Source of the DNA: an uncultured Erysipelotrichaceae bacterium
GTDB taxonomy: Bacteria; Bacillota_I; Bacilli_A; RF39; UBA660
Length of the DNA stretch: 45,631 nt
Assembly: GCA_902768065.1 (NCBI GenBank)
Contig: CACXJP010000004.1
Coordinates: forward strand, 1-45,631
Direction of reading: 5' to 3'
The translations under genes were made by a program, and so were the position numbers. This document shows positions 9,341 through 30,265 of this stretch, piece by piece (position 1 is the first letter of the stretch; each line of letters opens with the position of its first letter). The notes under the pieces are model-generated. The model made no database searches and was not told where the DNA came from. It saw nothing but the letters and a program-made list of their open reading frames with translations.

Positions 9341-11333
9341 TAAATTATATATAATAATATTTATAATAGTATTATTGATTTCATTCGTTAGATTAAATAT
9401 AAAGAAAGAATCTATATATACAAATAATACTCATAAAGTAACAGGAACCATTTATAAGATTGTAAAAGATAATGATAATAGAAAAATATATTTAAATGGA
9501 AAAGAAAAACTAATAGTAAATGATTACACAAAAAATAAGGTAAAGTTAAACTTAGGAGATAAAGTAGAAGTAATAGGAACATTTATTAAACCGGATAATA
9601 GTAGAGATGATTACTCATTTGATTATAAAAAGTATTTAGAAAGAAATAACATATATTATATTGTAAATACTAAAAAAATAAAGAAAGTTAAAAACAACAG
9701 TAATATTTATTATTATTTAAAACAAATAATAATAAACCACCTTGGCAATAATCCATATCTAAATACTTTCATAGTTGGCGATAAATCACTTATAAATAGA
9801 GTAAGTATTAGAAGTTACCAAGAAAATGGAATAAGTCATTTATTCGCAATTAGTGGAATGCATATTACATTGTTATCAACTATAATTACAAAAATATTAA
9901 GAAGATTTATGTTTGAAGAAAATGCTTTCAAATTAACATCAATAGTATTAATATTTTATCTACTACTAATTGGATTATCACCATCAGTATTAAGAGGTGT
10001 TTTATTCTTTATCTTATTTGGAATAAATAGAATATACTATTTTTATGTTAAGCCAAGAAATATCTTTCTATTAATAATATCTTTTTCATTATTAATAAAT
10101 CCAAAATACATTTATGATGTTGGATTTCAATATTCTTATTTAATAAGTTTTTCACTTATAGCTTTAAATAGTAAACTAAAATCATCAAATTATTTTATAT
10201 CATTATTTAAAGTGTCACTATTATCTTTTTTTGTTTCAATTCCAATTACTATATACAATTTTTATCAAATAAATATTATGAGTATAATATATAATCTGTT
10301 TTTTGTACCACTAGTAAGCTTAATAATCTTTCCACTGGGAATTATCAACTTTATTGTAAAACCCACTGAACCTTTCTTTATTTTTTTTACAAAGTTAATG
10401 GAAAAAATATCTATATACATATCAAATATAAATATTGGAAAACTAATATTTATTAAATTACCAACATTTATTTATATAGCGTATTTTATAATTGTAATTC
10501 TTTTTGTGTTAACTAAAAAGAGATGTTATATATTTTTATTAGTTATTATGTTAATTATTCATTTTTTTATTCCATATATAAGTAGATCAAATTATGCTTA
10601 TTATATAGATGTAGGACAAGGTGATTCTACAATCCTTCATATTAATAATAAGAATATATTAATAGATACTGGTGGAAATAGAAAAAAAGAAATATTCTAT
10701 AACACATTAAGTCCAGCTTTAAAAACCAAAGGGATTAGAAAAATAGATATTCTGATAATTACCCATGGGGATTACGATCATATGGGAGAAGCGATTAATT
10801 TAGTAAATAATTTTAAAGTAGAGAAAGTGATATTTAATTGTGGAACATATAATGATTTAGAACAAGAATTAATTAATGTATTGGATAAGAAAAAAATTAA
10901 ATATTATTCTTGTGTTAAAGAACTAAATATAGATAAGAATAAATTATATTTCTTACAGACAAAAGAATATGATAATGAAAATGATAATAGTAATGTAATT
11001 TATACAGAATTAAATGGTTATAAATTTATGCTTATGGGAGATGCTGGAGTAGATAAAGAAAAAGATATATTAGATAAGTATAATATATCAAATATAGATG
11101 TATTAAAAGTAGGACATCATGGGAGTAAGACAAGTAGTGGAAAAGATTTTATAAATGAAATAAATCCTAAATACTCGATTATTAGTGTTGGCAAAAATAA
11201 TAGGTATGGTCATCCAAATAAAGAAGTATTAGATAATTTAGATAATTCAAAAATATATAGAACAGATCAAGATGGAAGTATTATGTTTAAAATTAAAGAT
11301 AATAAATTAAATATTGAGACTTGTTGTCCATAA
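9303..11333 (+). CDS. comEC: ComEC/Rec2 DNA-uptake channel with C-terminal MBL domain
   Basis: A full-length (676-residue) channel for single-stranded DNA import. An N-terminal OB-like segment (~45-120) is followed by the competence domain with many helices (ISHLFAISGMHITLLS near 180, then a hydrophobic stretch to ~430). The C-terminal metallo-beta-lactamase domain (~435-676) has DVGQGDSTIL, ITHGDYDHMGEA, LMGDAG and DVLKVGHHGSKTSSG, the active-site motifs. The start ATG 9303 has GGAG four bases upstream inside comEA, so the two are coupled. Its last ~190 codons from H488, or the last ~50 from V629, recur eight times downstream. This intact copy heads that array and is followed at once by a promoter and a trpF-like gene. 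Confidence 0.95.
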   Translation: MFLLQLRKILLHDKLYIIIFIIVLLISFVRLNIKKESIYTNNTHKVTGTIYKIVKDNDNRKIYLNGKEKLIVNDYTKNKVKLNLGDKVEVIGTFIKPDNSRDDYSFDYKKYLERNNIYYIVNTKKIKKVKNNSNIYYYLKQIIINHLGNNPYLNTFIVGDKSLINRVSIRSYQENGISHLFAISGMHITLLSTIITKILRRFMFEENAFKLTSIVLIFYLLLIGLSPSVLRGVLFFILFGINRIYYFYVKPRNIFLLIISFSLLINPKYIYDVGFQYSYLISFSLIALNSKLKSSNYFISLFKVSLLSFFVSIPITIYNFYQINIMSIIYNLFFVPLVSLIIFPLGIINFIVKPTEPFFIFFTKLMEKISIYISNINIGKLIFIKLPTFIYIAYFIIVILFVLTKKRCYIFLLVIMLIIHFFIPYISRSNYAYYIDVGQGDSTILHINNKNILIDTGGNRKKEIFYNTLSPALKTKGIRKIDILIITHGDYDHMGEAINLVNNFKVEKVIFNCGTYNDLEQELINVLDKKKIKYYSCVKELNIDKNKLYFLQTKEYDNENDNSNVIYTELNGYKFMLMGDAGVDKEKDILDKYNISNIDVLKVGHHGSKTSSGKDFINEINPKYSIISVGKNNRYGHPNKEVLDNLDNSKIYRTDQDGSIMFKIKDNKLNIETCCP

Positions 11334-11346
11334 ATATTAATTGATA

Positions 11347-11355
11347 TGATATAAT
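11347..11355 (+). promoter_or_regulatory. Extended -10 promoter directly after the comEC stop
   Basis: TGATATAAT lies 14 bases past the comEC stop and drives the first trpF-like gene. The following leader ATAATTATAGGATGTGA is almost identical to that at 27,706-27,722. Confidence 0.75.
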
Positions 11356-11375
11356 AATTATAGGATGTGATACTA

Positions 11376-12026
11376 ATGAAGGTAAAAATATGTGCTAATA
11401 CAAGCGTAGAAGAAGCTCAAATGTGTCTAGATGCAAAAGCGGATGTAATAGGAATTTTAGTTGGGCAAGAACATGCTAGTAATGATTTTGTTGATAAAGA
11501 AAAAGCTAAAGAAATATGCGACTATGTTAATGGTAGATGCGATGTTTCGTTAGTTACACATTTAACAAGTGCGGAAGAAATTATTGAATTAACAAATTAT
11601 ATCGGAAATAATATAATTCAATTACATTCAGATATTGCTGAAGAAGAAGTTAAAAAAATTAAAAATGAATTGCCAAATATAGAATTAGTTAGATTAATTC
11701 ATGTAGCAAGTGATGGAACAATTTGCACTGATTATAAAAAAATGAAATATGCGGATTATTATTTGTTGGATAGTTTTAATTTAAAAACAAATCAAGTTGG
11801 AGGTACTGGCCTTACACATGATTGGAATAAGAGTGGAGAATTAATAAAACAATTAGACAAACCAACATTTTTAGCCGGCGGTTTAAATCCAGACAATGTT
11901 AAAATTGCAATTGAAACAGCTAGACCATATGGTGTCGATGTAAATAGTGGATGTAAAAATGAACATGGCAAAAAAGATAAAGAAAAAGTACGACAATTTG
12001 TTGTTAATGCAAAAAATATATTTTAA
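11376..12026 (+). CDS. Phosphoribosylanthranilate isomerase-like protein, copy 1
   Basis: A 216-residue TIM-barrel protein of the TrpF family. TrpF isomerises N-(5'-phosphoribosyl)anthranilate in tryptophan synthesis. Visible features are KICANTS at the start (the catalytic Cys of the family's KICG motif), LLDSF with the catalytic Asp, QVGGTGLTHDW and LAGGLNPDN for phosphate binding, and VDVNSGCK. The start ATG 11376 follows AGGATG and aligns with the second copy at 30,338. There are no other tryptophan genes nearby, and the TrpF signature Gly of KICG is Ala, so the substrate may differ. About 85% identical by eye to the copy at 30,338; the two bracket the array. Confidence 0.75.
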   Translation: MKVKICANTSVEEAQMCLDAKADVIGILVGQEHASNDFVDKEKAKEICDYVNGRCDVSLVTHLTSAEEIIELTNYIGNNIIQLHSDIAEEEVKKIKNELPNIELVRLIHVASDGTICTDYKKMKYADYYLLDSFNLKTNQVGGTGLTHDWNKSGELIKQLDKPTFLAGGLNPDNVKIAIETARPYGVDVNSGCKNEHGKKDKEKVRQFVVNAKNIF

Positions 12027-12039
12027 TTAGTAATTAATA

Positions 12040-12063
12040 AAAACTACATGAGTAGTTTTTTTA
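12040..12063 (+). terminator. Terminator of trpF-like copy 1
   Basis: AAAACTAC/GTAGTTTT (12040-12047 with 12052-12059) with an ATGA loop and trailing T. Confidence 0.85.
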
Positions 12064-12082
12064 TTTGTCTAAATCATATATG

Positions 12083-12196
12083 TATTAACTACATAGTACC
12101 AGTTGGTAAAAATAATAGGTATGGTCATCCAAATAAAGAAGTATTATGTTTAAGATAAAGAATGATAGATTGAAAATAGAAACTTGTAGTCCATAG
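12083..12196 (+). pseudogene. comEC 3'-end remnant, short type, with internal deletion
   Basis: It begins TATTAACTA...CCAGTTGGTAAAAATAAT and matches comEC from codon ~629 (VGKNNRYGHPNKE). It jumps from GAAGTATTA to TTATGTTTAAG, losing ~50 bases between two GTATTA repeats. It ends with the typical ACTTGTAGTCCATAG. There is no ribosome site and it is not expected to be translated. Confidence 0.8.
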
Positions 12197-12228
12197 AAAA
12201 TGAGAGGTTATGTGTATAAATAAATTTG

Positions 12229-12237: not shown

Positions 12238-12253
12238 ATTTATGGTGATTGAA

Positions 12254-12790
12254 ATGATATATCTGACAAGGCATGGTCAAACTGATTGGAATGTTCAAAA
12301 GAAAGTAATGGGTAGATGTGATGAACCATTAAATGAAAAAGGAAGAGAACAAGCTAAACAAACCAAAGAATTATTATCAGATATTAATTTCGATTTAATA
12401 ATATGTTCTCCATTGTTGAGAGCAAAGGAAACTGCTCAAATAATAAATCAAGATAGAAATATTAAGATAGAATATGATGATAGAATTATAGAAAGAGATT
12501 TTGGAGAACTTGAAGGATTAGAAACAAAAGATTTTGATTTTGATGGATTTTGGAATTATTATAAGAATAATATGTATGATAGGGCAGAAAATATACAAGA
12601 TTTTTTTAATAGAATATATGATTTTTTAGATGATATTTGTGTTAAGTATGCTGATAAAAATGTATTAATAGTTGCACATGGGGGTGTAAGTATTCCATTT
12701 AATTGTTATTTTGCAAAAAATATTCCAAATGGATCATTAGTTGAAGCAGGACTTGTATTAGGCAATTGTCAAGTTGCTTCTTATGAATAA
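12254..12790 (+). CDS. Histidine phosphatase family protein (phosphoglycerate-mutase-like)
   Basis: A 178-residue cytoplasmic phosphatase. The catalytic motif LTRHGQTDWN is at residues 4-13. The second His is in VAHGGVSIPFNCYF (~140), and an acidic residue lies in IIERDFGELEG. These make up the phosphohistidine active site of the branch that includes cofactor-dependent mutases, CobC and broad phosphatases. The substrate cannot be told from sequence. ATG 12242 is also in frame but lies at or before the transcription start; ATG 12254 gives the standard MIYLTRHG opening. It is followed 12 bases later by the NIF3-like gene, so the two form a two-gene cassette. Confidence 0.85.
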   Translation: MIYLTRHGQTDWNVQKKVMGRCDEPLNEKGREQAKQTKELLSDINFDLIICSPLLRAKETAQIINQDRNIKIEYDDRIIERDFGELEGLETKDFDFDGFWNYYKNNMYDRAENIQDFFNRIYDFLDDICVKYADKNVLIVAHGGVSIPFNCYFAKNIPNGSLVEAGLVLGNCQVASYE

Positions 12791-12802
12791 TGGAGATGAA
12801 TT

Positions 12803-13150
12803 ATGAATATTAATGTTAATAGAGTTAAGATATGTGTTACTGTTCCTAGAGATAATACTAGTGAAGTACTAGATGCAATGTGTAACGCTGGAGCTGGTAC
12901 TTTATCTGATTCAAATTATACTTATTGTACAACTACTATTAAGACAATTGGTACATTTCTTCCAAATGATAAGGCTAATCCTTATATTGGAGAGACTAAT
13001 AAATTAGAAATTGTTGAAGAGGATAAAGTAGAAGTAATATGTGAAATTGATAAATTAAAAAAAGTAATATCTATTTTAAGAAAAACTCATCCATATGAGG
13101 AACCTGCTATTGATATTATTCCTTTAATTGACGAGGATAGTTTAGTTTAA
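12803..13150 (+). CDS. YqfO/NIF3 PII-like domain protein
   Basis: A 115-residue protein matching the small PII/CutA-like domain found inside YqfO-type NIF3 proteins and as stand-alone proteins. Key stretches are RVKICVTVPRDNTSEVLDAM, NAGAGTLSDSNYTYCT, GTFLPNDKANPYIG and LRKTHPYEEPAIDI. The HPYEEPA motif is diagnostic. The molecular role is uncertain; the domain is linked with metal or small-molecule binding. ATG 12803 follows a GGAGATG ribosome site and lies 12 bases after the phosphatase gene. Confidence 0.8.
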   Translation: MNINVNRVKICVTVPRDNTSEVLDAMCNAGAGTLSDSNYTYCTTTIKTIGTFLPNDKANPYIGETNKLEIVEEDKVEVICEIDKLKKVISILRKTHPYEEPAIDIIPLIDEDSLV

Positions 13151-13153
13151 TAG

Positions 13154-13181
13154 GAATTATCAAATTGATAGTTCTTTTTTT
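13154..13181 (+). terminator. Rho-independent terminator
   Basis: GAATTATCA/TGATAGTTC (one G-U) with T7. Similar GAATTATC stems end several other cassettes (14,406; 16,468; 29,649). Confidence 0.8.
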
Positions 13182-13202
13182 GTATGTGATGATTCGAAAA
13201 TT

Positions 13203-13231
13203 AAATAAATAATAAAATGAAAATAGAATGT
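13203..13231 (+). other. Possible heavily decayed comEC tail
   Basis: AATAATAAAATGAAAATAGA resembles the last codons of the comEC copies (AATAATAAATTGAAAATTGA) and lies in the expected place, between a terminator and a promoter. The match is short and AT-rich, so it may be chance. Confidence 0.25.
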
Positions 13232-13232
13232 A

Positions 13233-13241
13233 TGATATAAT
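13233..13241 (+). promoter_or_regulatory. Extended -10 promoter of MFS gene 1
   Basis: TGATATAAT, with the GGTGAT ribosome site directly downstream. Confidence 0.7.
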
Positions 13242-13256
13242 TTTATTGGTGATAAT

Positions 13257-14420
13257 ATGAATAAAAGAAATACTATAGTATTATTTATATATTCTTTTTT
13301 AAATAGTTTTTTATTATATAGAGCATGTGATGTTTTATATTATTTATCTAAAGGAATTAGTAATTCAGAGTATATAAATTATATTACTATTGGTAGTGTA
13401 ATAACTATTATATTTTTAATACCTTTTGGAATAATAAAAGATAAATATAATCGTAAATATATTCTTATTAGTAGTAATATATTTTTATTAATAGCAACAT
13501 TATTTTATATTTATTCAAATAATGTATATTTAATGGGAATAGGAATTGTGATGTCAGCGATTTCTAATTTATTATCTCAAGGAATAGTTATATCATTACT
13601 TCATTCTTATATTAAAGATAAAAGTGAATATTCAAAGATGTATTATAAATGGTCTTTCTTTTATTATTTGGGATATTTAATATCCATGATACTTGGTGGT
13701 ATAGTTGCTAATTATAGTTTAGTTTCTATGTATTATATTAGTTTAATTCCTATAGTAATTAATTTTATAGTTTTATTATTACTTGATGATAAAAATGAAA
13801 AGACTAAAGAGAAGAATGGTACAAAGTATTTAATTAAAGAATCTATTAAACTGTTAGGAAATAATAAATTATTAAAAGTAATACTTTTATCTGAAATAAT
13901 AATTGTTCCTATAGCTGATATATTAGCTGAGAGTCATCCAGAGTATTTATCTAATATGGGAGCATCAACTACTATAATAGGAATATATACAGCAGTTATG
14001 TGTTTATTTGCGATAGTTGGTAATAAGATTGCTAGTATATATAAGAAACAAATAAATGTATTCTTTATATGTTCATTATTTTTTAGTATTAGTTTAATAT
14101 TGATTGGTTTATTAAATAATTATTTTTCTATTATTTTCATAATTTTATTTCAATGTTTCTTTTCTATTACAAATAATATTTATAATACTACTATTCAAAA
14201 TGAATGTAGTGATTCTTATAGACAAACAGTTTTAGCAATATTTACTTTTATAACTTCAATTTCAGAAATGATTATATGTACTATAACATCACTGATATTT
14301 AAAAATATCAGTCTAGGCAATTCATATGTTGTATTAGGTATCTTTGGTTTAGCAATAATATCGATTGCATTTTTATTTAGTATTTTTAAAAAGAAAAATG
14401 TTCAAGAATTATCTAAATAG
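13257..14420 (+). CDS. Major facilitator superfamily transporter 1
   Basis: A 387-residue inner-membrane transporter with about twelve hydrophobic segments. FGIIKDKYNRKYILISSN between helices 2 and 3 corresponds to the MFS loop motif (G-x-x-x-D-[RK]-x-[GN]-R-[RK]). A Lys-rich central loop (DDKNEKTKEKNGTK, ~178-192) separates the two six-helix halves. The substrate cannot be predicted; short drug-efflux-like members have this size. It is a single-gene cassette with its own promoter, and its stop codon lies inside the terminator stem. The protein lacks close similarity to the other MFS gene at 32,063 beyond the family pattern. Confidence 0.8.
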   Translation: MNKRNTIVLFIYSFLNSFLLYRACDVLYYLSKGISNSEYINYITIGSVITIIFLIPFGIIKDKYNRKYILISSNIFLLIATLFYIYSNNVYLMGIGIVMSAISNLLSQGIVISLLHSYIKDKSEYSKMYYKWSFFYYLGYLISMILGGIVANYSLVSMYYISLIPIVINFIVLLLLDDKNEKTKEKNGTKYLIKESIKLLGNNKLLKVILLSEIIIVPIADILAESHPEYLSNMGASTTIIGIYTAVMCLFAIVGNKIASIYKKQINVFFICSLFFSISLILIGLLNNYFSIIFIILFQCFFSITNNIYNTTIQNECSDSYRQTVLAIFTFITSISEMIICTITSLIFKNISLGNSYVVLGIFGLAIISIAFLFSIFKKKNVQELSK

Positions 14421-14432: not shown

Positions 14433-14461
14433 CTTTACTTAAACCCGTATGCATAAACACA

Positions 14462-15039
14462 GGTCACCACATGGAGACTTTGATCATATGGGAGAAGCTA
14501 TTAACTTAGTTAATAACTTTAAAGTAGAGAAAGTTATATTTAATTGTGGAGAATACAACGATTTAGAAAAAGAATTAATTAAAGTTTTAGATAAAAAGAA
14601 GATAAAGTATTATTCGTGTATTAAAGAATTAAATATAGATAAGAACAAATTATATTTCTTACAAACAAAAGAATATGATAATGAAAATGATAATAGTAAT
14701 GTTATTTATACAGAACTTAATGGTTATAAATTTATGTTTATGGGAGATGCAGGAATAGAAAAGGAAAAAGATATTTTAGATAAATATAATTTGTCTAAAA
14801 TAGATGTTTTAAAAGTAGGGCATCACGGAAGCAAAACAAGTAGTAACAAAGAATTTATAAATGAGATTAATCCAAAATATTCTGTTATTAGTGTAGGTAA
14901 GAATAATAGGTATGGTCATCCAAATAAAGAGGTACTAGATAATTTAGATAATTCAAAAATATATAGAACGGATCAAGATGGTAGTATTATGTTTAAAATT
15001 AAAAATAATAAATTTAAAATTGTGACGTGTAGTCCGTAG
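14462..15039 (+). pseudogene. comEC 3'-end copy, long type (MBL half domain)
   Basis: The frame is open from 14449, but homology begins at CACCACATGGAGA (PHGDFDHMGEA) and runs intact to the comEC stop, ~190 codons. Upstream of it is a terminator and no ribosome site, and the first half of the MBL fold (including DVGQGDS) is missing, so a working protein is unlikely. Against comEC over the last 74 codons I count 19 synonymous and 8 amino-acid changes, five of the latter in the last dozen codons. It is followed 12 bases later by the nuclease gene, whose AAAGGAG site begins at the stop. Confidence 0.8.
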
Positions 15040-15051: not shown

Positions 15052-15942
15052 ATGAATTATTATGATGAGATAAAGAAAAACTTAATAAAATGTGAAATAT
15101 ATGATAAATCCAAAGACTTTGCAAAAAATAAGAATAGAGTTATAACATATTTTGAAAATGGGAAACTGTTATATGAGGCAGGAAGTACATATGGTAAAAA
15201 TATAATTAAACAGTACTCAGAAAAGTTGATGATTGAAGTTGGTAAGAAATATAATGAACGAACATTATATAGAATGAGAAAATTTTATGAAGTATTTAAG
15301 AGTGAAAAATTGACACCATTGGTGTCAAAATTGAGTTGGAGTCATTATATACAGTTATTGTCTATTAATAATGAAGATGAAATCATTTATTACATAAATG
15401 CAACTATAAATAACAGCTTGAATAAAAGAGAACTTCAAGAAAAAATTAATAATCGAGAGTATGATAGGTTAAGTAGTGAAACTAAAATAAAACTTATTGA
15501 ATCAGGTGATTTAATTGTAAATGATCTTGTACCAAATCCAATAATAATAAAATCTGATTTATTGAAAGAAGAACTAACTGAATATGCGTTAAAACAAGCT
15601 ATACTGAATAATCTTGATAACTTTTTAAAACAATTAGGTGTTGGCTTTACTTATGTTGGTAATGAATATAAAATAAAAATTGATGATAGATACAATTATA
15701 TTGATTTACTTCTTTATAATATTAAATATAAATGTTATGTAGTAATTGAATTAAAAGTAACTGAATTAAAAAAAGAACATACAGGTCAAATTATGACTTA
15801 TATGAATTATATTGATAAGAATATTAAAACTATAGAAGAGAATGATACTGTAGGAATTATTATTTGTAAGCAGGATAATGAATATGTCATAAAATATTGT
15901 TCAGATGAGAGAATAATAGCTAGAGAATATGAATTAGTATAA
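15052..15942 (+). CDS. DUF1016 family PDDEXK nuclease (YhcG-like)
   Basis: A 296-residue protein. The N-terminal ~150 residues match the DUF1016 N domain (GKLLYEAGSTYGKNIIKQYS, RTLYRMRKFYEVF, LSWSHYIQLLSI). The C-terminal ~110 residues form a PDDEXK-type fold with YIDLLLYN followed by YVVIELKV, giving the Asp and Glu-x-Lys of the metal site, then GQIMTYMNYIDK. Such proteins occur in defence islands and near restriction genes; the target is unknown. It has no promoter of its own: its AAAGGAG site starts on the stop codon of the comEC copy, so expression depends on upstream transcription. Confidence 0.85.
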   Translation: MNYYDEIKKNLIKCEIYDKSKDFAKNKNRVITYFENGKLLYEAGSTYGKNIIKQYSEKLMIEVGKKYNERTLYRMRKFYEVFKSEKLTPLVSKLSWSHYIQLLSINNEDEIIYYINATINNSLNKRELQEKINNREYDRLSSETKIKLIESGDLIVNDLVPNPIIIKSDLLKEELTEYALKQAILNNLDNFLKQLGVGFTYVGNEYKIKIDDRYNYIDLLLYNIKYKCYVVIELKVTELKKEHTGQIMTYMNYIDKNIKTIEENDTVGIIICKQDNEYVIKYCSDERIIAREYELV

Positions 15943-15954
15943 TTATAGAAATTA

Positions 15955-15963
15955 TGATATAAT
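15955..15963 (+). promoter_or_regulatory. Extended -10 promoter of the DUF488-like gene
   Basis: TGATATAAT, 13 bases after the nuclease stop, with no terminator between. Confidence 0.7.
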
Positions 15964-15988
15964 ATTAATTAGTTTGTAGCTGGTTTTG

Positions 15989-17928: not shown

Positions 17929-17938
17929 ATAATAAATG

Positions 17939-22567: not shown

Positions 22568-22594
22568 TATTTTTTATAAAAATGTTTAAATACC

Positions 22595-22623: not shown

Positions 22624-22655
22624 ATCAGTCAATGTTTTATGAGGGGGGAGATAGT

Positions 22656-23213: not shown

Positions 23214-23227
23214 CCACTTTTTTATTT
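23203..23227 (+). terminator. Hairpin between the Cys-tail gene and folE
   Basis: GTGG/CCAC around TTGCTAG then T6. It overlaps the stop and is a weak stem, so partial read-through to folE is likely. Confidence 0.5.
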
Positions 23228-23243
23228 ATAAAGGGGGATTTAT

Positions 23244-23783: not shown

Positions 23784-23784
23784 A

Positions 23785-24762
23785 ATGAACTACGAAAAGT
23801 ATATGCAGATTGCTATTAATGAAGCAAAAAAAGGAATTGAAATTGGGGAACAACCTTACGGTGCTGTGTTAGTAGCAGATGGAAAAATTGTATCTGTTGC
23901 ACATAATGAGGTATTATCTTCAAAAAATATTTTAAATCATGCTGAAATAGTTGCTATAAATAATTACTTAAATTCTATGACTAATAAACCGAATGATTTG
24001 ACACTTATTACTACTTGTGAGCCATGTGTTAAATGTTTTGGAACTGCTATAAAATTAGGCGTAAATAGATTTGTATATGGTTCAGATTTGGAAACTGCAA
24101 TTAGTTATGGTTCTAATGATATTCATTTAGGAATTAATGATTTTAAATCAATTTATAAATTTGAAACTATAAGCGGTGTATTAAAGAATGAATGCGATAT
24201 GCTGTTAGATACATTTTATTTTAGAAATAATGTTGTAACTTATTCAACAGGAAATGATGAGGAAATTTTTTGGATGAAAAGAGCCTTACAAGTTGGAAAA
24301 AAAGGAATGATAGAAAATGATGAATTACCAATAGGGGTTGTATTAGTTGCAGGAAATAGATTATTGACCGAAACGTGCACACTTACATATACACTTAATT
24401 CACCAATTACTCATGGTGACTTTATGGCATTATTCAATGCTGAAAGAGAAGTATATTCTCCAAATATTGAAAGGCCTTTGGTTCTTTATAGTTCACTTGA
24501 ACCACATTTACTGGGGTTTGGTGCAGCGATAAAATGTAAAGTTGATAAAGTTGTATTTGGTTTAGAAGCAATACCAGATGGTGGTTCTTGTTATTTAAAA
24601 AATATGGTTGGAATTAAAGAAAGAATACCAAAAGTAGTTGGAGGAGTTTTACGAGAAGAACAGTATAAATTAATGAAAGAATTTTTAGAAACCCATGAAG
24701 AAAATCGTGTTGGTTATGGTTATGCAAAAAGTCTTGTAAAATTATATGAGAAAGGAAGATAA
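23785..24762 (+). CDS. Tandem nucleoside-deaminase-fold protein with degenerate second domain
   Basis: A 325-residue protein containing two cytidine-deaminase-like domains. Domain 1 (~1-150) has the complete zinc site: HAEIVA and TCEPCVKC (HAE plus PCxxC). Domain 2 (~155-310) repeats the fold (FWMKRALQVGKKGM..., LPIGVVLVAG) but has HGDFMALFNAE and SSLEPHLLGFGAAIKC, lacking Glu of HAE and both Cys. One active and one structural domain in a chain recalls tRNA-deaminase heterodimers or APOBEC-type double domains. The substrate may be guanine, a pterin or a cytosine compound; unknown. It is tightly packed between folE and the methyltransferase. Confidence 0.8.
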   Translation: MNYEKYMQIAINEAKKGIEIGEQPYGAVLVADGKIVSVAHNEVLSSKNILNHAEIVAINNYLNSMTNKPNDLTLITTCEPCVKCFGTAIKLGVNRFVYGSDLETAISYGSNDIHLGINDFKSIYKFETISGVLKNECDMLLDTFYFRNNVVTYSTGNDEEIFWMKRALQVGKKGMIENDELPIGVVLVAGNRLLTETCTLTYTLNSPITHGDFMALFNAEREVYSPNIERPLVLYSSLEPHLLGFGAAIKCKVDKVVFGLEAIPDGGSCYLKNMVGIKERIPKVVGGVLREEQYKLMKEFLETHEENRVGYGYAKSLVKLYEKGR

Positions 24763-24763
24763 T

Positions 24764-25378
24764 ATGGATTTTGATTATTTCTATTCTAAACAAAAAAGTT
24801 ATTTTGGTGAAGAACCATCTGACGGACTTGTAGCAATGCTAAAACAATATCAAGTTAATATTGGAAAGGCATTGGATATTGGCGCAGGTGAAGGACGAAA
24901 TTCAGTTTATTTGGCAGGATTGGGATTTGATGTAACTTCCATAGAACCAACAAAAGATGGCTCAAACAAGATAATTGAAAAATCCAATCAGTTAGACTTG
25001 AATATAAATGTATTAAATTGTGATTATTTAAGTGAAAATTTGAATGAAAAATATGATTTTATAATTGCAGGGACATCATTAGATCATATGGAAAAAGATT
25101 ATTTAGATAAAGCAGTAGAAAAATTAAAGGGTAGCTTAAACAAAGGTGGACTAGTTTATATTGTTGTATTTACTCAAGATGATCCTGGATATTTAAAACA
25201 ATTAGATAATGCTAGTGAGTGTTCTGATTTTATTAAACATTATTTTTCTAAAAATGAATTGAGAGATTATTTCAAAGAATTTGATATTTTATATTACAAT
25301 GAGTATATAAAACCAGATAATTCTCATGGCAAACCACATGTTCACGGAAAAGCAAAATTAATTGCAAGGAAAATATAA
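24764..25378 (+). CDS. Class I SAM-dependent methyltransferase (TehB-like)
   Basis: A 204-residue Rossmann-fold methyltransferase. Motif I is ALDIGAGEGRNSVYLAGLG (~37-55), the acidic end of strand 2 is in VTSIEPT, motif post-I is NVLNCDYL, and motif IV is YDFIIAGTSLDHM. The Gly-rich loop with GRNSVYLA resembles the TehB and UbiE-like small-molecule branch. The substrate is unknown; context suggests the product of the deaminase/FolE pair or a toxic compound. The start ATG 24764 follows AAAGGAAG and lies one base after the deaminase stop. Confidence 0.85.
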   Translation: MDFDYFYSKQKSYFGEEPSDGLVAMLKQYQVNIGKALDIGAGEGRNSVYLAGLGFDVTSIEPTKDGSNKIIEKSNQLDLNINVLNCDYLSENLNEKYDFIIAGTSLDHMEKDYLDKAVEKLKGSLNKGGLVYIVVFTQDDPGYLKQLDNASECSDFIKHYFSKNELRDYFKEFDILYYNEYIKPDNSHGKPHVHGKAKLIARKI

Positions 25379-25379
25379 T

Positions 25380-25871
25380 ATGGAATATGATTTGTTATTA
25401 GAAAAAATCACTAATTTACTTTCAAGAGTAAATTATGTGGTACTTGCTACTGCAAGTAAAGATGGTGTTGTAACAGCTAGTAAGATGTGTGTTATATCTG
25501 ATGGAACTGCGCTTTATTTTCAAACAGATTCTAACTTTGAAAAAGCAAGAAATATAATGGAAAATCCTAATGTTGCAATAACTATTGAAAATATTTATTT
25601 TAAGGGACATGCTAGTATTATAGGTCATCCATCAAAAAATATATATTTTGTAAATCAGATGAAAGAAAAACATTTTCAAACATATGAAAATTATACAAAT
25701 TTACCAAATCAAATTTTGATAAAAGTAGAACTTACTGAATGTAGGATTTGGGGAATATGGAATAATATAAATGATTGCGATAATAATAAAGAAGAGTCAA
25801 TAAAAGTTTTAAATTTAAAAAATAAACAATTAACAAAAATAAAATGTGATAATTTAAAAGGTGGATACTAA
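25380..25871 (+). CDS. Pyridoxamine 5'-phosphate oxidase family flavoprotein
   Basis: A 163-residue split-barrel protein. The segments VVLATASKDGVVTASKM, ISDGTALYFQTDSNFEKARNI and PNVAITIENIYFKGHASI have the order of the PNPOx-like fold that binds FMN, F420 or haem. It lacks the C-terminal R-[LI]-... motif of true PdxH, so vitamin B6 synthesis is unlikely. It may be a flavin reductase or oxidase acting in the operon pathway. ATG follows CAAGGAAA. Last gene of the five-gene operon. Confidence 0.75.
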   Translation: MEYDLLLEKITNLLSRVNYVVLATASKDGVVTASKMCVISDGTALYFQTDSNFEKARNIMENPNVAITIENIYFKGHASIIGHPSKNIYFVNQMKEKHFQTYENYTNLPNQILIKVELTECRIWGIWNNINDCDNNKEESIKVLNLKNKQLTKIKCDNLKGGY

Positions 25872-25898
25872 TTTATAATATAATGATTTATGTATTTA

Positions 25899-25951
25899 AC
25901 TATCTTTTAGACAAGATAGTAACACACTACCAAGTCGGCATAATGCCAACT
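25899..25951 (-). other. Candidate oriT of MobV (pMV158) type
   Basis: On the minus strand TAGTGTGTTA (25929-25920) equals the known MobM nick sequence TAGTGTG/TTA. As in pMV158 a hairpin lies just 5' of the nick: AGTTGGCAT/ATGCCGACT (25951-25933, one mismatch). An 8-bp hairpin ACTATCTT/AAGATAGT (25899-25906 with 25913-25920) lies on the other side. The match to the nick site is from memory of the literature; function is inferred. It is ~3.4 kb downstream of the mobV pseudogene instead of next to it. Confidence 0.6.
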
Positions 25952-25962
25952 AGGATTGTGTG

Positions 25963-26036
25963 CCAAAGGAGATCCTTTGGGAACCCATTTAAGCACCAAT
26001 ACTACAAACTATCGTAAAGAGTATTGGTGCCTTTTT
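25963..26036 (+). terminator. Tandem hairpins ending in a terminator
   Basis: CCAAAGG/CCTTTGG (25963-25969 with 25974-25980) is followed by a 10-bp perfect stem GCACCAATAC/GTATTGGTGC (25993-26002 with 26021-26030) and CTTTTTATTTT. The second is a good terminator for the folE operon. The GC content exceeds that of its surroundings. Confidence 0.75.
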
Positions 26037-26117
26037 ATTTTGTCTTGCGACTTCATAAAAATGAAAAAAATTCTACTACTTTCATTGCTAACGCAACAAA
26101 ACGTAATATCCTTTTTT

Positions 26118-26152
26118 TATAGAAAAATCTCTAATCTTGCGAAAAGAGATTT
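26118..26152 (-). terminator. Terminator of the XRE gene
   Basis: AAAATCTC/GAGATTTT with T runs on both strands flanking, directly past the minus-strand stop. Confidence 0.6.
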
Positions 26153-26674
26153 TTAATTTTGCTTCGGTAACTTATCATAGTCATATTTATGCTCAGCAAA
26201 TTCTAATTCCTCAAAAGCATATTTTATATCTTCTATTGCCTTATCAATAGTATATAGACTATCTTTATTATCTTTCATGATTTGTAAGTGTTCCATTGTA
26301 TAAAATAGCTTTTGTCTAGCATCACTAATTTTTCTTCTCTTTTGAGAATCAAAATCTAATAAATCTATTTCGGATTTTTTATATTGTTCTATTAATTCTT
26401 TTAAATCTTTTGAAGATTTATTTGCATATTTATCTTTATTAAAATAGAATAGCATTTCATCATAACCTGCAACCTTTAATAATTTTTGTAAAGACATATC
26501 TAATGTTTCAGCAATCTTTCGTAGATCATCAATATCTACTTTTTTTATTTTGCCATTAATTAAGTCATTTAATGTACTTCTACTAATACCTGTTTGTTTA
26601 GCAAGTTCTCTTTGTGAAATACCTTTTTTAATTCTAACATCTTCTATTAAAATTTTAAGTTCTTCTGAGTTCAT
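26153..26674 (-). CDS. XRE family transcriptional regulator
   Basis: A 173-residue regulator. Residues ~5-65 form a Cro/C1-type helix-turn-helix: RIKKGISQRELAKQTGISRS then TLNDLINGK and IDDLRKIAETLDMSLQKLL. The C-terminal ~100 residues are helical and charged with a coiled-coil look, perhaps for oligomerisation or anti-repressor contact; no peptidase motif is seen. It is the only minus-strand gene of the island and is divergent from the winged-helix gene across an operator-rich spacer. Likely represses its own and the neighbouring promoter and keeps the mobilizable element quiet. Confidence 0.85.
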   Translation of the reverse strand: MNSEELKILIEDVRIKKGISQRELAKQTGISRSTLNDLINGKIKKVDIDDLRKIAETLDMSLQKLLKVAGYDEMLFYFNKDKYANKSSKDLKELIEQYKKSEIDLLDFDSQKRRKISDARQKLFYTMEHLQIMKDNKDSLYTIDKAIEDIKYAFEELEFAEHKYDYDKLPKQN

Positions 26675-26763
26675 TTAAACCACATCCTTTTTACTAATAA
26701 ATCATTATAATTACTAGCAATTTTATTCCTCAGTAATTACATTTTAGCACATAATTACGAAAA

Positions 26764-26842
26764 TGTCCAGTTTTTCGGTTAAAATACTTGACATTATTTT
26801 CGGACAATGATATATTTATGCTGTCCGGCATATTGGACGTAC
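26764..26842 (+). promoter_or_regulatory. Divergent control region with TGTCC/GGACA operators
   Basis: TTGACA (26788-26793), a 17-base spacer and TATATT (26811-26816) form a promoter toward the winged-helix gene. Half sites: TGTCC at 26764, CGGACA at 26801 inside the spacer, TGTCCGG at 26822 and TTGGACGTACA at 26833. The CGGACA and TGTCCG sites are inverted, as expected for an XRE dimer. Confidence 0.6.
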
Positions 26843-26862
26843 AGAAAGGAGTGAGTTTATGA

Positions 26863-27120
26863 ATGAGGATTAGACATCTAGAAGTATCAGAAACGATTTG
26901 GAAAGAAAAAAGAATTCCAAAAGAAACGAAATTGATCTACTCATATATTTATACCAAAGGTATGACGCGAATAATCACAGATATAAATGTAGGAGAGATT
27001 CAAAGAGTAGTAAACATCAAGAATAAAGGTTTGAGAAAAAGCCTTAGGATATTAGAAGAATTAAAATATCTAATATATAAGGAATACTCAAACGGAATGT
27101 ACACAATAACACTTAACTAG
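26863..27120 (+). CDS. Winged-helix replication or regulation protein
   Basis: An 85-residue protein that reads IRHLEVSETIWKEKRIPKE, KLIYSYIYTKGM and KGLRKSLRILEELKYLIYKE. This looks like a single winged-helix domain of the kind at the N-terminus of replication initiators. The AAAGGAG site is spaced best for ATG 26859, which reads only four codons; ATG 26863 in the next frame opens the gene, so the start may be shifted by a one-base change. The function is unproven. Confidence 0.5.
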   Translation: MRIRHLEVSETIWKEKRIPKETKLIYSYIYTKGMTRIITDINVGEIQRVVNIKNKGLRKSLRILEELKYLIYKEYSNGMYTITLN

Positions 27121-27395
27121 AAATGTATAAATGAACGCTAGTTATAAGAGGCTCGGTAAGATATTAAGGCTTATATCAGAACCTATCTTATAGAAATATA
27201 AGATAAATACAAGTTTGAACTATAACATATTTCAAAGAACGAATTAAAAGAAATATAAAGGGGTTAGGAAATATGTATGTTATAGCTCAAGCTATTACCA
27301 TAAGAAGAATCTATTCTTCTATAGGGATTTTTACTATGTTTTTAAGTATTGTTTAATATTTCAGCTTGTAGAATCATTTACAAGTTTTTTTATTG
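27121..27395 (+). other. Non-coding stretch with hairpins and a small ORF
   Basis: It contains a 9-bp perfect hairpin with a GAAA loop (27184-27192 with 27197-27205) and a terminator-like CTTGTA/TACAAG stem with T7 near 27,364-27,390. A 27-codon frame (27273-27356, MYVIAQAITIRRIYSS...) follows an AAAGGGG site. It could be a regulatory RNA or replication region; nothing else is recognised. Confidence 0.35.
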
Positions 27396-27619
27396 CCAAA
27401 AATTAAAGGAAATAGAAAAAATAATAAATGAACCTACAATTTTAACTGAATTTAACAGAGAAATTTTTGATACTATTGTTGATAAAATTGTTGTCGGTGA
27501 AGTTTCAGAAACTGGAGAAGTAAAACCTAATGTAATTAGATTTATTTTAAGGACAGGTAAAGAATATAAAACTATAATAAATAATAACAGAAATAAAAAT
27601 GTGTCATTATGTACAAAAG
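27396..27619 (+). pseudogene. Large serine recombinase, C-terminal remnant
   Basis: The frame (open 27349-27675) includes ILTEFNREIFDTIVDKIVV and PNVIRFILRTGKEYK, which match the end of large serine site-specific recombinases, where the pattern 'FD.elfd.lvekv.V' followed by a 'v.F.fk.G' strand is typical. The catalytic Ser domain and most of the zinc and coiled-coil region are missing. It lies at the right edge of the element, where such integrases normally sit, and passes directly into dinD sequence. Confidence 0.7.
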
Positions 27620-27691
27620 ACAGAAAAATTACCAACTCCAAAAACAAGTTTAAAAGAATTAGAAAAAGAGAATAAGAAAATAAAAGAATAG
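27620..27691 (+). pseudogene. dinD copy 2, 3' end
   Basis: Read in the frame ending at TAG 27689, this gives TEKLPTPKTSLKELEKENKK then IKE, aligning with the DinD C-terminus NLHTPNKSLKELEKENLK at 17,870-17,928. It is the missing end of the gene begun at 20,633. Confidence 0.85.
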
Positions 27692-27699
27692 ATAAAATA

Positions 27700-27722
27700 T
27701 GATATAATAATTGTAGGATGTG
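27700..27722 (+). promoter_or_regulatory. Extended -10 promoter with conserved leader
   Basis: TGATATAAT then AATTGTAGGATGTGA. The same promoter plus leader occurs after comEC at 11,347 (one base differs over ~23) and, in part, at 28,924. Shared leaders suggest common ancestry of cassette fronts. Confidence 0.7.
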
Positions 27723-27728
27723 AGCCGT

Positions 27729-28259
27729 ATGAATAAAATTTTAAAAATAATGGATAAACTAAATAGTATAGAATATGGTTTTAAAGATAAAAATGGAAAT
27801 AACTTAATTAATAGTGAAAGATGGGATAAAGAATTTTATAAGTTTTATTTTTTATTAAGTCCAGAAGAATTATTATCAAGTAAATGTGGAGTATGTTGGG
27901 ATCAGGTTGAACTTGAAAGAAAACTATTTAATGATGCTAATATAGATTGTGATACATATTTTATTTATATTGATGATAATGAAAATTTACCATCACATAC
28001 TTTTCTTACATTTCAATTGAATGATAAATATTATTGGTTTGAACATTCTTGGTATGATATGAAAGGAATTCATGAATATAATAATATAGAAACACTTTTA
28101 AACGATGTAAAGATTAAATTCATTGAGAGTAGAAAAAATGAGATAGATTCAAGTTTAAAATATGACACTTATATATATAAATATAACAAGCCAAAATATC
28201 ATATAAATTGTGACGAATTCTATAATTATATAAAAACTCAAGATAAAATTAATATTTAA
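27729..28259 (+). CDS. Transglutaminase-like cysteine hydrolase, putative
   Basis: A 176-residue cytoplasmic protein. CGVCWDQVELERKLF (~57-71) looks like the nucleophile helix of transglutaminase-like proteases. SHTFLTFQLNDKYYWFEHSW supplies a His on the next strands and a Glu/Asp (WFEHSWYD) shortly after, giving a Cys-His-acid order. ATG 27729 is chosen over GTG 27720 because of AGGATG spacing and similarity to the trpF leader. No partner gene is in the cassette. The substrate is unknown and the catalytic assignment is inference. Confidence 0.5.
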   Translation: MNKILKIMDKLNSIEYGFKDKNGNNLINSERWDKEFYKFYFLLSPEELLSSKCGVCWDQVELERKLFNDANIDCDTYFIYIDDNENLPSHTFLTFQLNDKYYWFEHSWYDMKGIHEYNNIETLLNDVKIKFIESRKNEIDSSLKYDTYIYKYNKPKYHINCDEFYNYIKTQDKINI

Positions 28260-28292: not shown

Positions 28293-28312
28293 TTTGTAAA
28301 AAAACATTTTTA

Positions 28313-28911
28313 TTCGACTTACTTTTTGACAATCACCACATGGCGATTATGATCATATGGGGGAAGCAATCAATTTGGTTAATAATTTTGAAGTAGAAAA
28401 AGTAATCTTTAATTGTGGTGAATTTAATGATTTAGAACAAGAATTAATTAAGGTATTAGATAAAAAGAAGATTAAATATTATTCCTGCATTAAAGAATTA
28501 AATATTAATAATAATAATAAATTATATATTTTACAAACAAAAGAATATGATAATGAAAATGATAATAGTAATGTTATTTATACTGAACTAAATGGTTACA
28601 AATTTATGTTTATGGGAGATGCATCTATTACTACTGAAAAAGAAATAATGAATAAATATAGTTTATATGATATAGATGTATTAAAAGTAGGCCATCATGG
28701 ATCTAAAACAAGTAGTAGTGAATCTTTTATAAATAGAATTGATCCAAAATACTCAATAATTAGTGTAGGTAAAAATAATAGGTATGGTCATCCAAATAAA
28801 GAGGTATTAGATAATTTAAAAAATAGTAAGATTTATAGAACTGATCAAGATGGAAGTATTATGTTTAAGATTAAAAATAATAAACTAACGATCAAAACTT
28901 GTAACCCATAG
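28313..28911 (+). pseudogene. comEC 3'-end copy, long type
   Basis: It shares the 5' junction CGACTTACTTTTTGACAAT with the copy at 16,502. The frame is intact from HGDYDHMGEA to the stop, with a one-codon insertion in the Asn run (INNNNKLYIL). No start signal. A TGATATAAT promoter follows the stop. Confidence 0.8.
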
Positions 28912-28932: not shown

Positions 28933-28996
28933 AATTGCAAGAGAATATTAATTATAATAGAAAAATGATATATTTATATAAATGTTTGGAGGAAAT

Positions 28997-29665
28997 ATGA
29001 AATTATCTGATTATAAAAATGTAGAGTTATCTAAAAATATAGTTGATGAAATTGTTTTCAGCAACATTGAAGATACTGGTGAATTTTGTTATTATGCGCT
29101 TGTATTTGGGCATGCAATGTTAATTGTTGAAAGAACATTAAAGGCCGTAGAGATGTATAAACAAAAAAGAGTAAAGAAACTTGTATTTATGGGTGGTGGC
29201 TATGGTGATAGCAATGTATCAAAAGATCATATTCCAGAAGCACATAAAATGCGTGAATTAGCTATAAAAAATGGAGTTAATCCTGATGATATAATAGTAG
29301 AAGATAAATCTAGAAATACTAAAGAAAATATTTTATTTGCGCTAGATTTATTAGATAAATCCAACTTTGACAAAGTTATGCTAATAACAAGCGAATTTCA
29401 TTTAAAAAGGTGTAATGCTCTAATTAAGAAAATTATACCAGGTGTAAGTACTATATTAGTTAAAGCACCAGATGGAATTCACGATAGAGACAATTGGTTT
29501 ATGAGTGACAATATTTGGGATAACAATGGAAAACATGGTAGCGGAAAATCATTAGTTGAAAATGAAGCACGAATATTAATTGAAGGAGCTTGCAATGGCA
29601 CATTAGAAAATTTTGAAGTTAACAATAGACCATACAACTATAATTTAAGAATTATTAATAAATAG
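28997..29665 (+). CDS. YdcF/DUF218 family protein
   Basis: A 222-residue protein without the N-terminal membrane helix common in SanA and ElyC relatives. The DUF218 core is visible: LVFGHAM at the first strand (usual 'vvLGgg'), LVFMGGGYGDSN, PEAHKMRELAIKNGV, IIVEDKSRNTKENI and VMLITSEFHLKRC. The S-R-N-T-x-E-N signature is diagnostic. The family is linked to envelope maintenance and possibly to polyprenyl or nucleotide substrates; the reaction is not settled. The start ATG 28997 follows TTGGAGG. A single-gene cassette. Confidence 0.85.
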   Translation: MKLSDYKNVELSKNIVDEIVFSNIEDTGEFCYYALVFGHAMLIVERTLKAVEMYKQKRVKKLVFMGGGYGDSNVSKDHIPEAHKMRELAIKNGVNPDDIIVEDKSRNTKENILFALDLLDKSNFDKVMLITSEFHLKRCNALIKKIIPGVSTILVKAPDGIHDRDNWFMSDNIWDNNGKHGSGKSLVENEARILIEGACNGTLENFEVNNRPYNYNLRIINK

Positions 29666-29677
29666 TTCTTTTTTTAT
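29649..29677 (+). terminator. Rho-independent terminator
   Basis: AGAATTATT/AATAGTTCT stem overlapping the stop, then T7. Confidence 0.75.
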
Positions 29678-29679
29678 GT

Positions 29680-29844
29680 ACTAACTATTCAGCACCAGTA
29701 GGAAAGAATAACAGATATGGCCATCCAAATAAAGAGGTATTAGAAAATTTAGAGGATTCAAAAATATATAGAACAGATCAAAATGGTAGTATTATGTTTA
29801 CGATTAAGAATAATAAATTAAATATTGAAAAATGTATACCATAA
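29680..29844 (+). pseudogene. comEC 3'-end remnant, short type
   Basis: Begins ACTAACTATTCAG then CCAGTAGGAAAGAATAAC, as in the copies at 12,083 and 20,450. The frame is intact through VGKNNRYGHPNKEVLENL to CIP and TAA. Confidence 0.8.
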
Positions 29845-29859
29845 AAATAAATAATATAT

Positions 29860-29865
29860 TATAAT
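29860..29865 (+). promoter_or_regulatory. -10 box of the small cargo gene at 29,885
   Basis: TATAAT, 16 bases after the stop of the comEC remnant, without the TG extension. Confidence 0.5.
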
Positions 29866-29884
29866 ATTATCAGGAGAAAATGAT

Positions 29885-30142
29885 ATGAAAGAAGAAATGA
29901 TAACTATTGCCAAGAAACCCGGAGTAAAGGATTGTGTTAGAATTAGTAGTGTGAATGATATTCCTGATTTTTTGAAAGAAGTTGTAAGAGTTGATGGGGA
30001 AAATTTGGTTCTTGATTGTCTTGAAGGAGAAGAAAGATGTCCATTGAGTTCAGTAATTGCTTTTGAAAAATTAGAAAGTGGAAAAATGAACGTAAGTCAC
30101 CACATGGAGACTACGATCATATGGGAGAAGCAATTAATTTAG
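29885..30142 (+). CDS. Small hypothetical protein, 3' end replaced by a comEC fragment
   Basis: Codons 1-~69 encode a small acidic protein (MKEEMITIAKKPGVKD, VNDIPDFLKEVVRVDGEN, CPLSSVIAFEKL). The frame then runs, without a terminator, into the comEC copy at ~30,089 and stops out of frame at 30,140. Its natural C-terminus is therefore lost and the last ~17 residues are comEC DNA in the wrong frame. Ribosome site CAGGAG. No family recognised. A protein could still be made. Confidence 0.5.
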   Translation: MKEEMITIAKKPGVKDCVRISSVNDIPDFLKEVVRVDGENLVLDCLEGEERCPLSSVIAFEKLESGKMNVSHHMETTIIWEKQLI

Positions 30143-30240
30143 TGGAAAACATTAAAGTAGAGAAAGTTATATTCAACTGTGGGAAGTCCAATTATTTAGA
30201 AAAGGAGTTAATCAAGGTATTGAATAGAAAAAAAATAAAA
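30089..30240 (+). pseudogene. comEC fragment, truncated at both ends
   Basis: Begins GAACGTAAGTCACCACATGG. It is almost identical over ~150 bases to the start of the copy at 19,022 (KVEKVIFNCGKSNYLEKEL, then KVLNRKKIK) and breaks off there. It is the last comEC copy of the array and is followed by a terminator and the second trpF-like gene. Confidence 0.8.
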
Positions 30241-30265
30241 TTTTAGAAAAATAAAATATATTAAA

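Follow-up and report, generated by a model that had tools for sequence, protein, structure and literature searches.

Downstream of an intact comEC gene, an uncultured Erysipelotrichaceae bacterium carries eight detached copies of the 3' end of that gene, interleaved with cargo genes, on a 45,631-nucleotide (nt) stretch of DNA (GenBank assembly GCA_902768065.1, contig CACXJP010000004.1, positions 1 to 45,631, forward strand; hereafter the window). Here, we propose, with a probability of roughly 70%, that cassettes without an integrase of their own were stacked here through site-specific recombination by a serine integrase within comEC; incoming units would restore the gene by such recombination and not by transformation. 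The proposal draws on two fixed junctions inside comEC, on phage half-sites that precede the detached tails, on prophages lying in comEC at the same base, and on tails that have moved apart from the comEC bodies to which they are joined.

Junctions and tails of comEC

Exactly eight detached 3' ends, all on the plus strand, were found behind a comEC confirmed as intact by its open reading frame (ORF) and by Pfam (Competence, E 1e-42; Lactamase_B, E 2e-18), in agreement with a previous reading made from the letters alone (the original prediction). That reading took the copies for comEC tails, which they are, with the correction that only two start points occur, both fixed and each preceded by a conserved leader of its own. 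Five start at site A (four running 189-190 codons to the stop, one truncated at 47 codons) and three at site B, one of them decayed (Table 1). The best window matches to half-site plus core had 0 mismatches for leader type A1 and 2 for A2 (12-13 in controls for both) and 1 for type B (9-10 in controls), the controls being five order-1 resampled sequences.

A genome collection was searched with the window's ComEC, giving 60 loci from uncultured Bacilli-type metagenome-assembled genomes (MAGs), many labelled ruminant gut. With the window counted, 57 detached stretches were present in 33 of 61 comEC loci, a share inflated by the use of six peptide patterns, two of them within the tail; repeated tails had been forecast for related genomes. 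Two of the 57 stand at contig starts and lack their left side. Among the 55 others, 43 begin near codon 488 (site A, core CA), 11 begin near codon 629 (site B, core GT), and one is the second piece of a decayed tail in locus L027, where the two pieces may be a single tail. Because the same junctions occur in MAGs from several sequencing projects, an assembly artefact, the objection raised in advance, is very unlikely as the source of the copies.

No comEC sequence precedes the detached site-A tails; in its place stands a short conserved leader ending in CCA, followed by the CATGG of the tail. The leaders were of type A1 (ATTCGACTTACTTTTTGACAATCACCA), A2 (ATTCGTATGCATAAACGTATGTCACCA), or A3, which resembles A2. 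A recognisable A1, A2, or A3 half-site was seen by eye at 39 of the 43 site-A tails (37 of 39 in the junction listing, plus window 14470 and L050 10689; the listing filter skipped these two as well as L041 9293 and L047 393, and L041 9293 lay outside the by-eye check). Site-B junctions, found by a tail-side pattern, had a different leader in 10 of 10 cases, (T/G)ATGTAYTAA..., ending in CAGT (GGGT in L059). Leader and core together read CCA-CA-TGG at site A and mostly CCA-GT-TGG at site B; judged from these letters, both junctions have the shape of serine-recombinase sites. Terminator-like sequence was seen where the original prediction had units bounded by hairpin terminators, but the integrase half-sites bound the units too.

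The A1 leader (up to 2 mismatches) occurred in 22 of 385 genomes of one order, with reversed-pattern control columns at 0, and a comEC tail was read by eye directly 3' of 24 of the 25 listed A1 sites (several decayed; L114 was too decayed to read). Across 28 A1 junctions, conservation was 1.2-3.1 bits up to position -27 (1.40 bits at -27) and dropped to 0.22 bits at -28, with most positions upstream below 0.6 bits (0.87 at -34); since the search pattern largely fixes -24 to the core by construction, the informative parts are -27 to -25 and the drop at -28. In length, this block resembles the part of attP (a half-site of ~25 bp) that a serine integrase of the same class contacts, as given in the accessible part of PMC3783163. 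No phage gene was recognised beside the half-site in array units, among the matches listed, and conservation ends at -28; array units therefore keep the half-site. Coding sequence was rejected as an account of the half-site, given an in-frame stop in L003. At A1 junctions (window 28312-28360 and others), TTGACA lies ~16 nt before a TATGAT-like sequence in the comEC tail, and the A1-tail joint may form a promoter.

Tails have moved between genomes independently of the comEC body. In an alignment of 37 comEC genes across the junction, mean pairwise amino acid identity rose from 0.44 (codons 456-486) to 0.85 (codons 487-520). Between two body segments, pairwise identities correlated (rho 0.51; 0 of 500 permutations as high), between body and tail they did not (rho -0.12 to 0.04), and between the A and B parts of the tail they did so weakly (rho 0.28; 14 of 500 permutations); the tails of L008 and L045 are 98% identical and their bodies 45% identical. 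In two single-unit arrays (L004 and L013), the displaced tail was only 40-41% identical to the window's tail and native-like, as expected for a native tail that has been pushed out.

Among 36 loci with sufficient sequence behind the intact comEC, 27 have a nuclease gene of the YhcG/DUF1016 or DinD type after it (25 full length), and 15 of 53 detached tails are followed by one (9 full length); matches starting before codon 470 at <40% identity, and L061, were dropped from these counts. Nuclease type is independent of half-site type, both types occurring with A1, A2, and B. Distal tails are often more truncated. The greater frequency of full-length nuclease genes next to comEC, the identity jump, the uncorrelated body and tail distances, and the native-like displaced tails all bear out the earlier idea that incoming DNA with its own tail restores comEC and displaces the old tail and its cargo. 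PADLOC lists YhcG (PDC-S02) and DinD (PDC-S13) as phage-defence candidates, a database label that makes a defence role a candidate only. Many copies of DinD and YhcG occur singly at other places in these genomes, among them a solitary YhcG directly behind an elongation factor Tu gene (by eye; L190, 3731-5860), with no flanking repeats above controls.

A serine integrase and its prophages at codon 488

Viral contigs were searched for the exact A1 junction, and two were found. On phage contigs L206 and L208, A1 forms the left half of an attP of 56 bp, whose 12-bp inverted ends are perfect and whose core is CA; the L208 attP (10194-10249) overlaps the integrase stop codon by one base, its last. 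The integrase is a 473-amino-acid large serine integrase on a viral contig (Pfam; PHROG integrase), and the layout is that of large serine integrases, with a site of ~50 bp, inverted half-sites around a crossover dinucleotide, and the integrase gene alongside. Array junctions consist of phage half-site, core, and target half, the correspondence being identity for A1, the P' arm of genome G022 for A2, and shape only for B. Phage contig L205 ends at an A1-CATGG joint. L207, which encodes the same integrase, runs ~15 nt beyond the core into letters that read like comEC body and stops there, and its reading as attL rests on those ~15 nt. In two integrase relatives (L210 and L211; 65-68% identity), the attPs follow this plan too, with different arms flanking CCA-CA-TGG.

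Integrase relatives (E <= 1e-60) were found in 6 of 385 genomes and in 4 of 291 in each of two overlapping family-level samples, seven distinct genomes in all. Three, at >=63% identity (G141, G073, and G022), sit in comEC at codon 488; of the other four, two (G211 and G132) lie in genes reading as ABC ATPase motifs, and two (G358 and G370) are on contigs that end before the target. Further relatives of the comEC integrase (L215 and L216; 46-48%) adjoin what reads as ABC transporter ATPase motifs, and this integrase clade may favour conserved protein motifs.

In G141, a contiguous 38-kb prophage, in which terminase, portal, capsid, tape measure, and endolysin genes were recognised, lies between comEC body and displaced tail. 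A single contig carries, in this order, the truncated comEC (10695-12233), the integrase (12256-13686), genes for phage structure, the endolysin, attR (at 50248), and the displaced tail, which shares 44% identity with that of the window. The comEC of G073 is split at codon 488, with attR and displaced tail on another contig. That of G022, the genome of array contig L049, is likewise split at codon 488, and A2 was assigned to this integrase group because the G022 P' arm carries a 13-nt inverted repeat of the A2 half-site. In G022, the contig with the comEC body stops at the core, the final 99 nt of that body recur on the prophage contig as far as the core, and the array contig opens 2 nt ahead of CATGG. 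Prophage and array share the same core on separate contigs, which look like coexisting occupied and unoccupied forms, a linkage that we infer across contigs.

By these comparisons, site A is almost certainly the att site of this integrase family. The original prediction had incoming DNA recombine at the resident comEC and held that natural transformation could supply it; neither tail homology nor transformation found support as the founding process, the site-A junctions being half-sites of serine-integrase phages that integrate at that base. The ComEC of a lysogen is truncated at codon 488, and uptake through ComEC can therefore probably not be assumed at that stage.

Proposed passage of cassettes and competing explanations

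At site A, comEC codon 488 serves temperate phages with a large serine integrase as attB, with core CA; the prophage splits comEC, and attR results where a phage half-site (P) adjoins the displaced tail. A unit extends from a core to the next P and comprises a comEC tail, in many cases a YhcG or DinD gene, cargo of one or a few genes, and P; the unit beside the body rebuilds comEC, with older units further out. For pick-up, a phage would integrate before an array and later excise at a distal attR and not at its own, carrying tail and cassette as passenger. For delivery, it would integrate in the comEC of a new host and excise again at the proximal attR, which would leave body plus foreign tail, cassette, P half-site, and old tail, with comEC whole. 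Site B (codon 629, core GT) would work likewise with another enzyme. Such a cycle requires canonical steps only and would also explain the small units, the absence of an integrase, the exact junctions, and the newest-first order. We hold the chances of phage carriage as the vehicle to be even. The wider idea is tentative: that serine-integrase phages are vehicles collecting and stacking cassettes at their own att site, each with the missing gene end to make the gene whole once the phage has left, and that bacteria gather candidate anti-phage genes at the phage's doorway. The same plan may operate at other conserved genes (comEC site B and the rbgA 5' end; see below).

Recombinases were looked for in the units. 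Serine recombinases (PF07508) are present in 23 of 28 array genomes, and 29 such proteins compared with the 60 comEC loci and the window (E <= 1e-3) had no match except a remnant at window 27394-27591; the array genomes' own serine recombinases were rejected as the direct agent, none of the 29 matching inside comEC loci apart from that remnant. The remnant, together with an XRE gene and a small replication-like gene, resembles an element of genome G020 (L121) and lies inside a split DinD gene, and was for these reasons read as a later guest belonging to an unrelated element. No tyrosine integrase was noticed beside the array in the ORFs of eleven loci, Xer-like genes excepted, a check made without a systematic family scan. 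The Xer-like gene was rejected as the agent, as it stands after the tails only in L049, L053, and L033 and upstream of comEC in L008 and L036. The earlier statement that a cassette integrase is missing holds for the array, as tested for serine recombinases only, but an integrase exists on phages. In two array genomes, serine recombinase genes occur in tandem, three in L122 and four in L123, with an FtsK-like fragment (by eye) beside the L122 trio. Scans of viral contigs found no exact A2 or B half-site.

Several observations weigh against recombination by phage integrases as the builder of the array. An exact-peptide scan of viral contigs found no phage with a comEC tail or cassette, and plasmid and phage records gave matches to the comEC tail, none at >=60% identity. 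A site-B integrase was searched for and not found. The integrase clade occurs in 6 of 385 genomes and A1 half-sites in 22 of 385, which makes the clade the rarer of the two. Only attP and attB recombine without a phage factor according to the accessible part of PMC3783163, and a unit flanked by attB and attR can thus not simply leave by the integrase alone, because other site pairings do not recombine. Half-sites are degenerate at the L027 tail and at the last window tail (30103), and a tail in L047 (323-422) starts exactly at the site-A core without a recognisable phage half-site. The intact tails of L048 and L051 agree over their first 47-95 nt with the distal tail and not with the mobile consensus; this internal exchange means that homologous recombination takes part after founding. 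A different serine recombinase (L092) lies ~10 kb beyond the L053 tail, on what its length suggests is the same contig, with a Xer-like gene and further apparent host genes in front of it. Finally, L042 has a complete attP (2637-2692; 56/56 identical to that of phage L208) behind a comEC-DinD-cargo unit, followed by a TraX-like gene (by eye) with no phage beside the attP in this 3.3-kb contig; the cycle does not foresee this.

The L042 arrangement, comEC-cassette-complete attP, is the product expected if small circles with a hybrid site (P-core-tail) recombined with the attL of a prophage through its integrase and directionality factor, rebuilding comEC in front of a phage that was then lost. 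Conservation confined to the half-site also fits circles. We consider this route unlikely, as no free circle was seen and the phage that should adjoin the L042 attP is missing from that contig.

Transformation, in which linear DNA taken up recombines by tail homology at the resident comEC and pushes older tails downstream, could draw on tails ~85% identical across genomes, enough for homologous exchange, on the crossovers within the tails of L048 and L051, and on L055, where two tails are identical over the 105 nt compared. It is distinctly unlikely as the founding process, given founding junctions at one base in many genomes, tails that travel without body sequence, a junction leader that is a phage half-site, and the truncated ComEC of lysogens.

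Serial prophage decay, each unit being a prophage deleted down to its right end with comEC repaired each time by unrelated recombination, agrees with the occupation of the site by prophages and with the truncation of distal tails, and yet is very unlikely: when 25 A1 loci were compared with the phage contigs, comEC and the half-site accounted for all of the matches listed, conserved sequence stops at the half-site boundary, and decay cannot supply a new tail. Homing by YhcG and DinD, as nucleases that cut comEC and drive the insertion of their own unit, would produce the decay of nuclease genes seen away from the intact comEC, but is barely credible when nuclease type does not track half-site type, 9 of 36 comEC-proximal units have neither nuclease, 16 of 20 regions with copies outside comEC arrays lack flanking direct repeats clearly above controls (exceptions, L186, L195, L202, and L203), and the junctions fit integrase sites.

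The array in the window, a possible second target, and known systems

The features of the window are given in Table 1. Cargo genes were originally described as co-oriented; the XRE gene, on the minus strand, is an exception. The element within DinD (20999-27622) carries a Mob_Pre relaxase, FolE-like, deaminase, methyltransferase, PNPOx, and XRE genes, and the serine-recombinase remnant. TrpF-like genes stand at both ends of the array, the first 300 nt of the distal one (30339-30638) being 85% identical to 11377-11676.

Table 1. Coordinates of comEC, its detached tails, half-sites, and cargo in the window
Feature	Position	Strand	Basis or remark
Intact comEC; from 10764 (codon 488) on, mobile tail brought by incoming units	9303..11333	+	ORF, Pfam, rise in identity between codons 487 and 488 in 37 genes
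Crossover dinucleotide CA of site A (bases 1 and 2 of codon H488), attB-like	10764..10765	+	Junction alignment vs phage attP and prophage attL
Crossover dinucleotide GT of site B (codon V629), attB-like by analogy	11187..11188	+	Junction alignment
Cargo of unit nearest comEC, PRA isomerase (TrpF) family	11367..12026	+	Pfam PF00697, E 1.7e-30
B-type half-site, 4 mismatches to consensus over half-site and core	12079..12101	+	Motif match
Detached site-B tail, decayed	12102..12193	+	Tail comparison, junction alignment, motif match
Cargo: histidine-phosphatase-like (by eye), CutA1-like (weak, below cut-off), transporter-like membrane protein (by eye)	12242..14420	+	Pfam/by eye
A2-type half-site, 5 mismatches	14443..14469	+	Motif match
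Detached site-A tail, 189 codons	14470..15039	+	Tail comparison, motif match
Cargo: YhcG/DUF1016 PDDEXK nuclease (PADLOC candidate PDC-S02) and DUF488-like protein (below Pfam cut-off)	15052..16465	+	Pfam, PADLOC
A1-type half-site, 1 mismatch	16503..16529	+	Motif match
Detached site-A tail, 189 codons	16530..17099	+	Tail comparison, motif match
Cargo: DinD-like BRO-N protein (PADLOC candidate PDC-S13) and one protein without family assignment	17116..18985	+	Pfam, PADLOC
A2-type half-site, 2 mismatches	19017..19043	+	Motif match
Detached site-A tail, 189 codons	19044..19613	+	Tail comparison, motif match
Cargo: radical SAM-like protein (below Pfam cut-off)	19669..20424	+	Pfam
B-type half-site, 1 mismatch	20447..20469	+	Motif match
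Detached site-B tail, open to its stop	20470..20616	+	Tail comparison, junction alignment, motif match
Large cargo unit: DinD gene split (N part to 20998, C part ~27623-27691) by secondary mobilizable element	20597..27701	+	ORFs, Pfam
Mob_Pre relaxase of element inside split DinD	21497-22567		Element also has several cargo genes
XRE gene of element inside split DinD	26153-26674	-	By eye
Serine-recombinase C-terminal remnant of element inside split DinD	27394-27591		
Cargo: transglutaminase-like protein	27720..28259	+	Pfam PF04473
A1-type half-site, identical to left half of phage L208 attP	28312..28338	+	attP comparison, motif match
Detached site-A tail, 190 codons	28339..28911	+	Tail comparison, motif match
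Cargo: DUF218 protein	28982..29665	+	Pfam
B-type half-site, 4 mismatches	29675..29697	+	Motif match
Detached site-B tail, open to its stop	29698..29844	+	Tail comparison, junction alignment, motif match
Cargo: small ORF without family assignment, extends into next junction	29885..30142	+	ORF list
Degenerate A-type half-site, 9 mismatches (controls 12-13)	30076..30102	+	Motif match
Truncated site-A tail, 47 codons	30103..30246	+	Tail comparison, motif match
Second TrpF-like gene	30338..30982	+	Sequence comparison

In genome G002 (L203, 3746-6413), a DinD unit and the intact rbgA/ylqF (by eye) are preceded by a 108-nt copy of the 5' end of that gene, copy and gene being 95% identical. In genome G008 (L202, 1-8190), repeated 5' pieces of apparently the same gene alternate with similar cargo. 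At both loci, the repeated ends read as rbgA/ylqF (NINW|YPGHMAK), and the cargo types (DinD, DUF488-like, histidine phosphatase) are those of comEC arrays. Signal recognition particle RNA was rejected as the repeated gene of L202, with no Rfam match and repeats that look like rbgA 5' ends. This pattern suggests rbgA as a second target gene, rebuilt from its 5' side.

If the proposal is true, small cassettes would spread between divergent gut bacteria without a recombinase of their own, through ordinary temperate-phage integration and excision. At comEC, serine-integrase sites inside a protein motif are made harmless by carried coding tails; in the accessible parts of the literature, target sparing is described for tyrosine-integrase elements at gene ends. 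One locus joins comEC, phage integration, and candidate defence genes, and the array is a readable record of order of arrival. Both the site-A integrase and its sites are known to single-base precision, hence the core claim can be tested in a simple assay. Among the papers listed in literature searches, none describes such an array by title or start of abstract, subscription papers and preprints lying outside the coverage of that search.

Integron arrays receive each new unit beside a fixed platform, keep the order of arrival, and consist of units without a recombinase; the comEC platform differs in being a coding gene rebuilt by each unit, with ~25-bp phage half-sites as its sites. Staphylococcal cassette chromosome elements have serine recombinases, insert in a conserved gene, and form tandem composites, whereas no ccr-type gene was found in comEC units, whose site is internal to the gene and whose coding tail is long.

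Islander describes genomic islands that split and restore tRNA genes, the displaced fragment marking the far end; in the accessible part of that report (PMC4383910), the islands differ from comEC arrays in having tyrosine integrases and tRNA or transfer-messenger RNA (tmRNA) genes as targets. Prophages in competence genes are treated in PMC12637031, as far as that text is accessible. Phi1207.3/Tn1207.3 is a serine-recombinase phage that integrates at a GA dinucleotide inside streptococcal comEC; it is a single prophage with a GA site, and the accessible part of its description (PMC4260502) mentions no array or gene-restoring tail. The Streptococcus suis phage record phi-SsuHCJ31_comEC, named for comEC, has a comEC tail piece (34% identical) at its end.

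Closest in logic are the streptococcal cis-mobilizable elements (CIMEs) as given in the accessible parts of PMC5704250 and PMC7563491. These are integrase-less, keep attL and attR, stack with autonomous elements, and are proposed to be mobilised in cis; their composites comprise two or three elements at the 3' ends of genes, with the most decayed units farthest from the target gene. The same sources say that serine-integrase integrative and conjugative elements target internal sites of dispensable conserved genes. Like CIMEs in those accounts, comEC units lack an integrase, are stacked at a shared site, and are more decayed with distance (truncated distal tails, nuclease counts). Unlike them, comEC units have a rebuilt, attB-like comEC and not attL as their left boundary, and comEC arrays go with the serine class, a site internal to the gene, and a replacement tail of 48 or 190 codons, eight of which stand detached in the window. 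Against that published background, comEC arrays share the stacking logic of CIMEs and differ in enzyme class, internal site, carried coding tail, and rebuilt attB.

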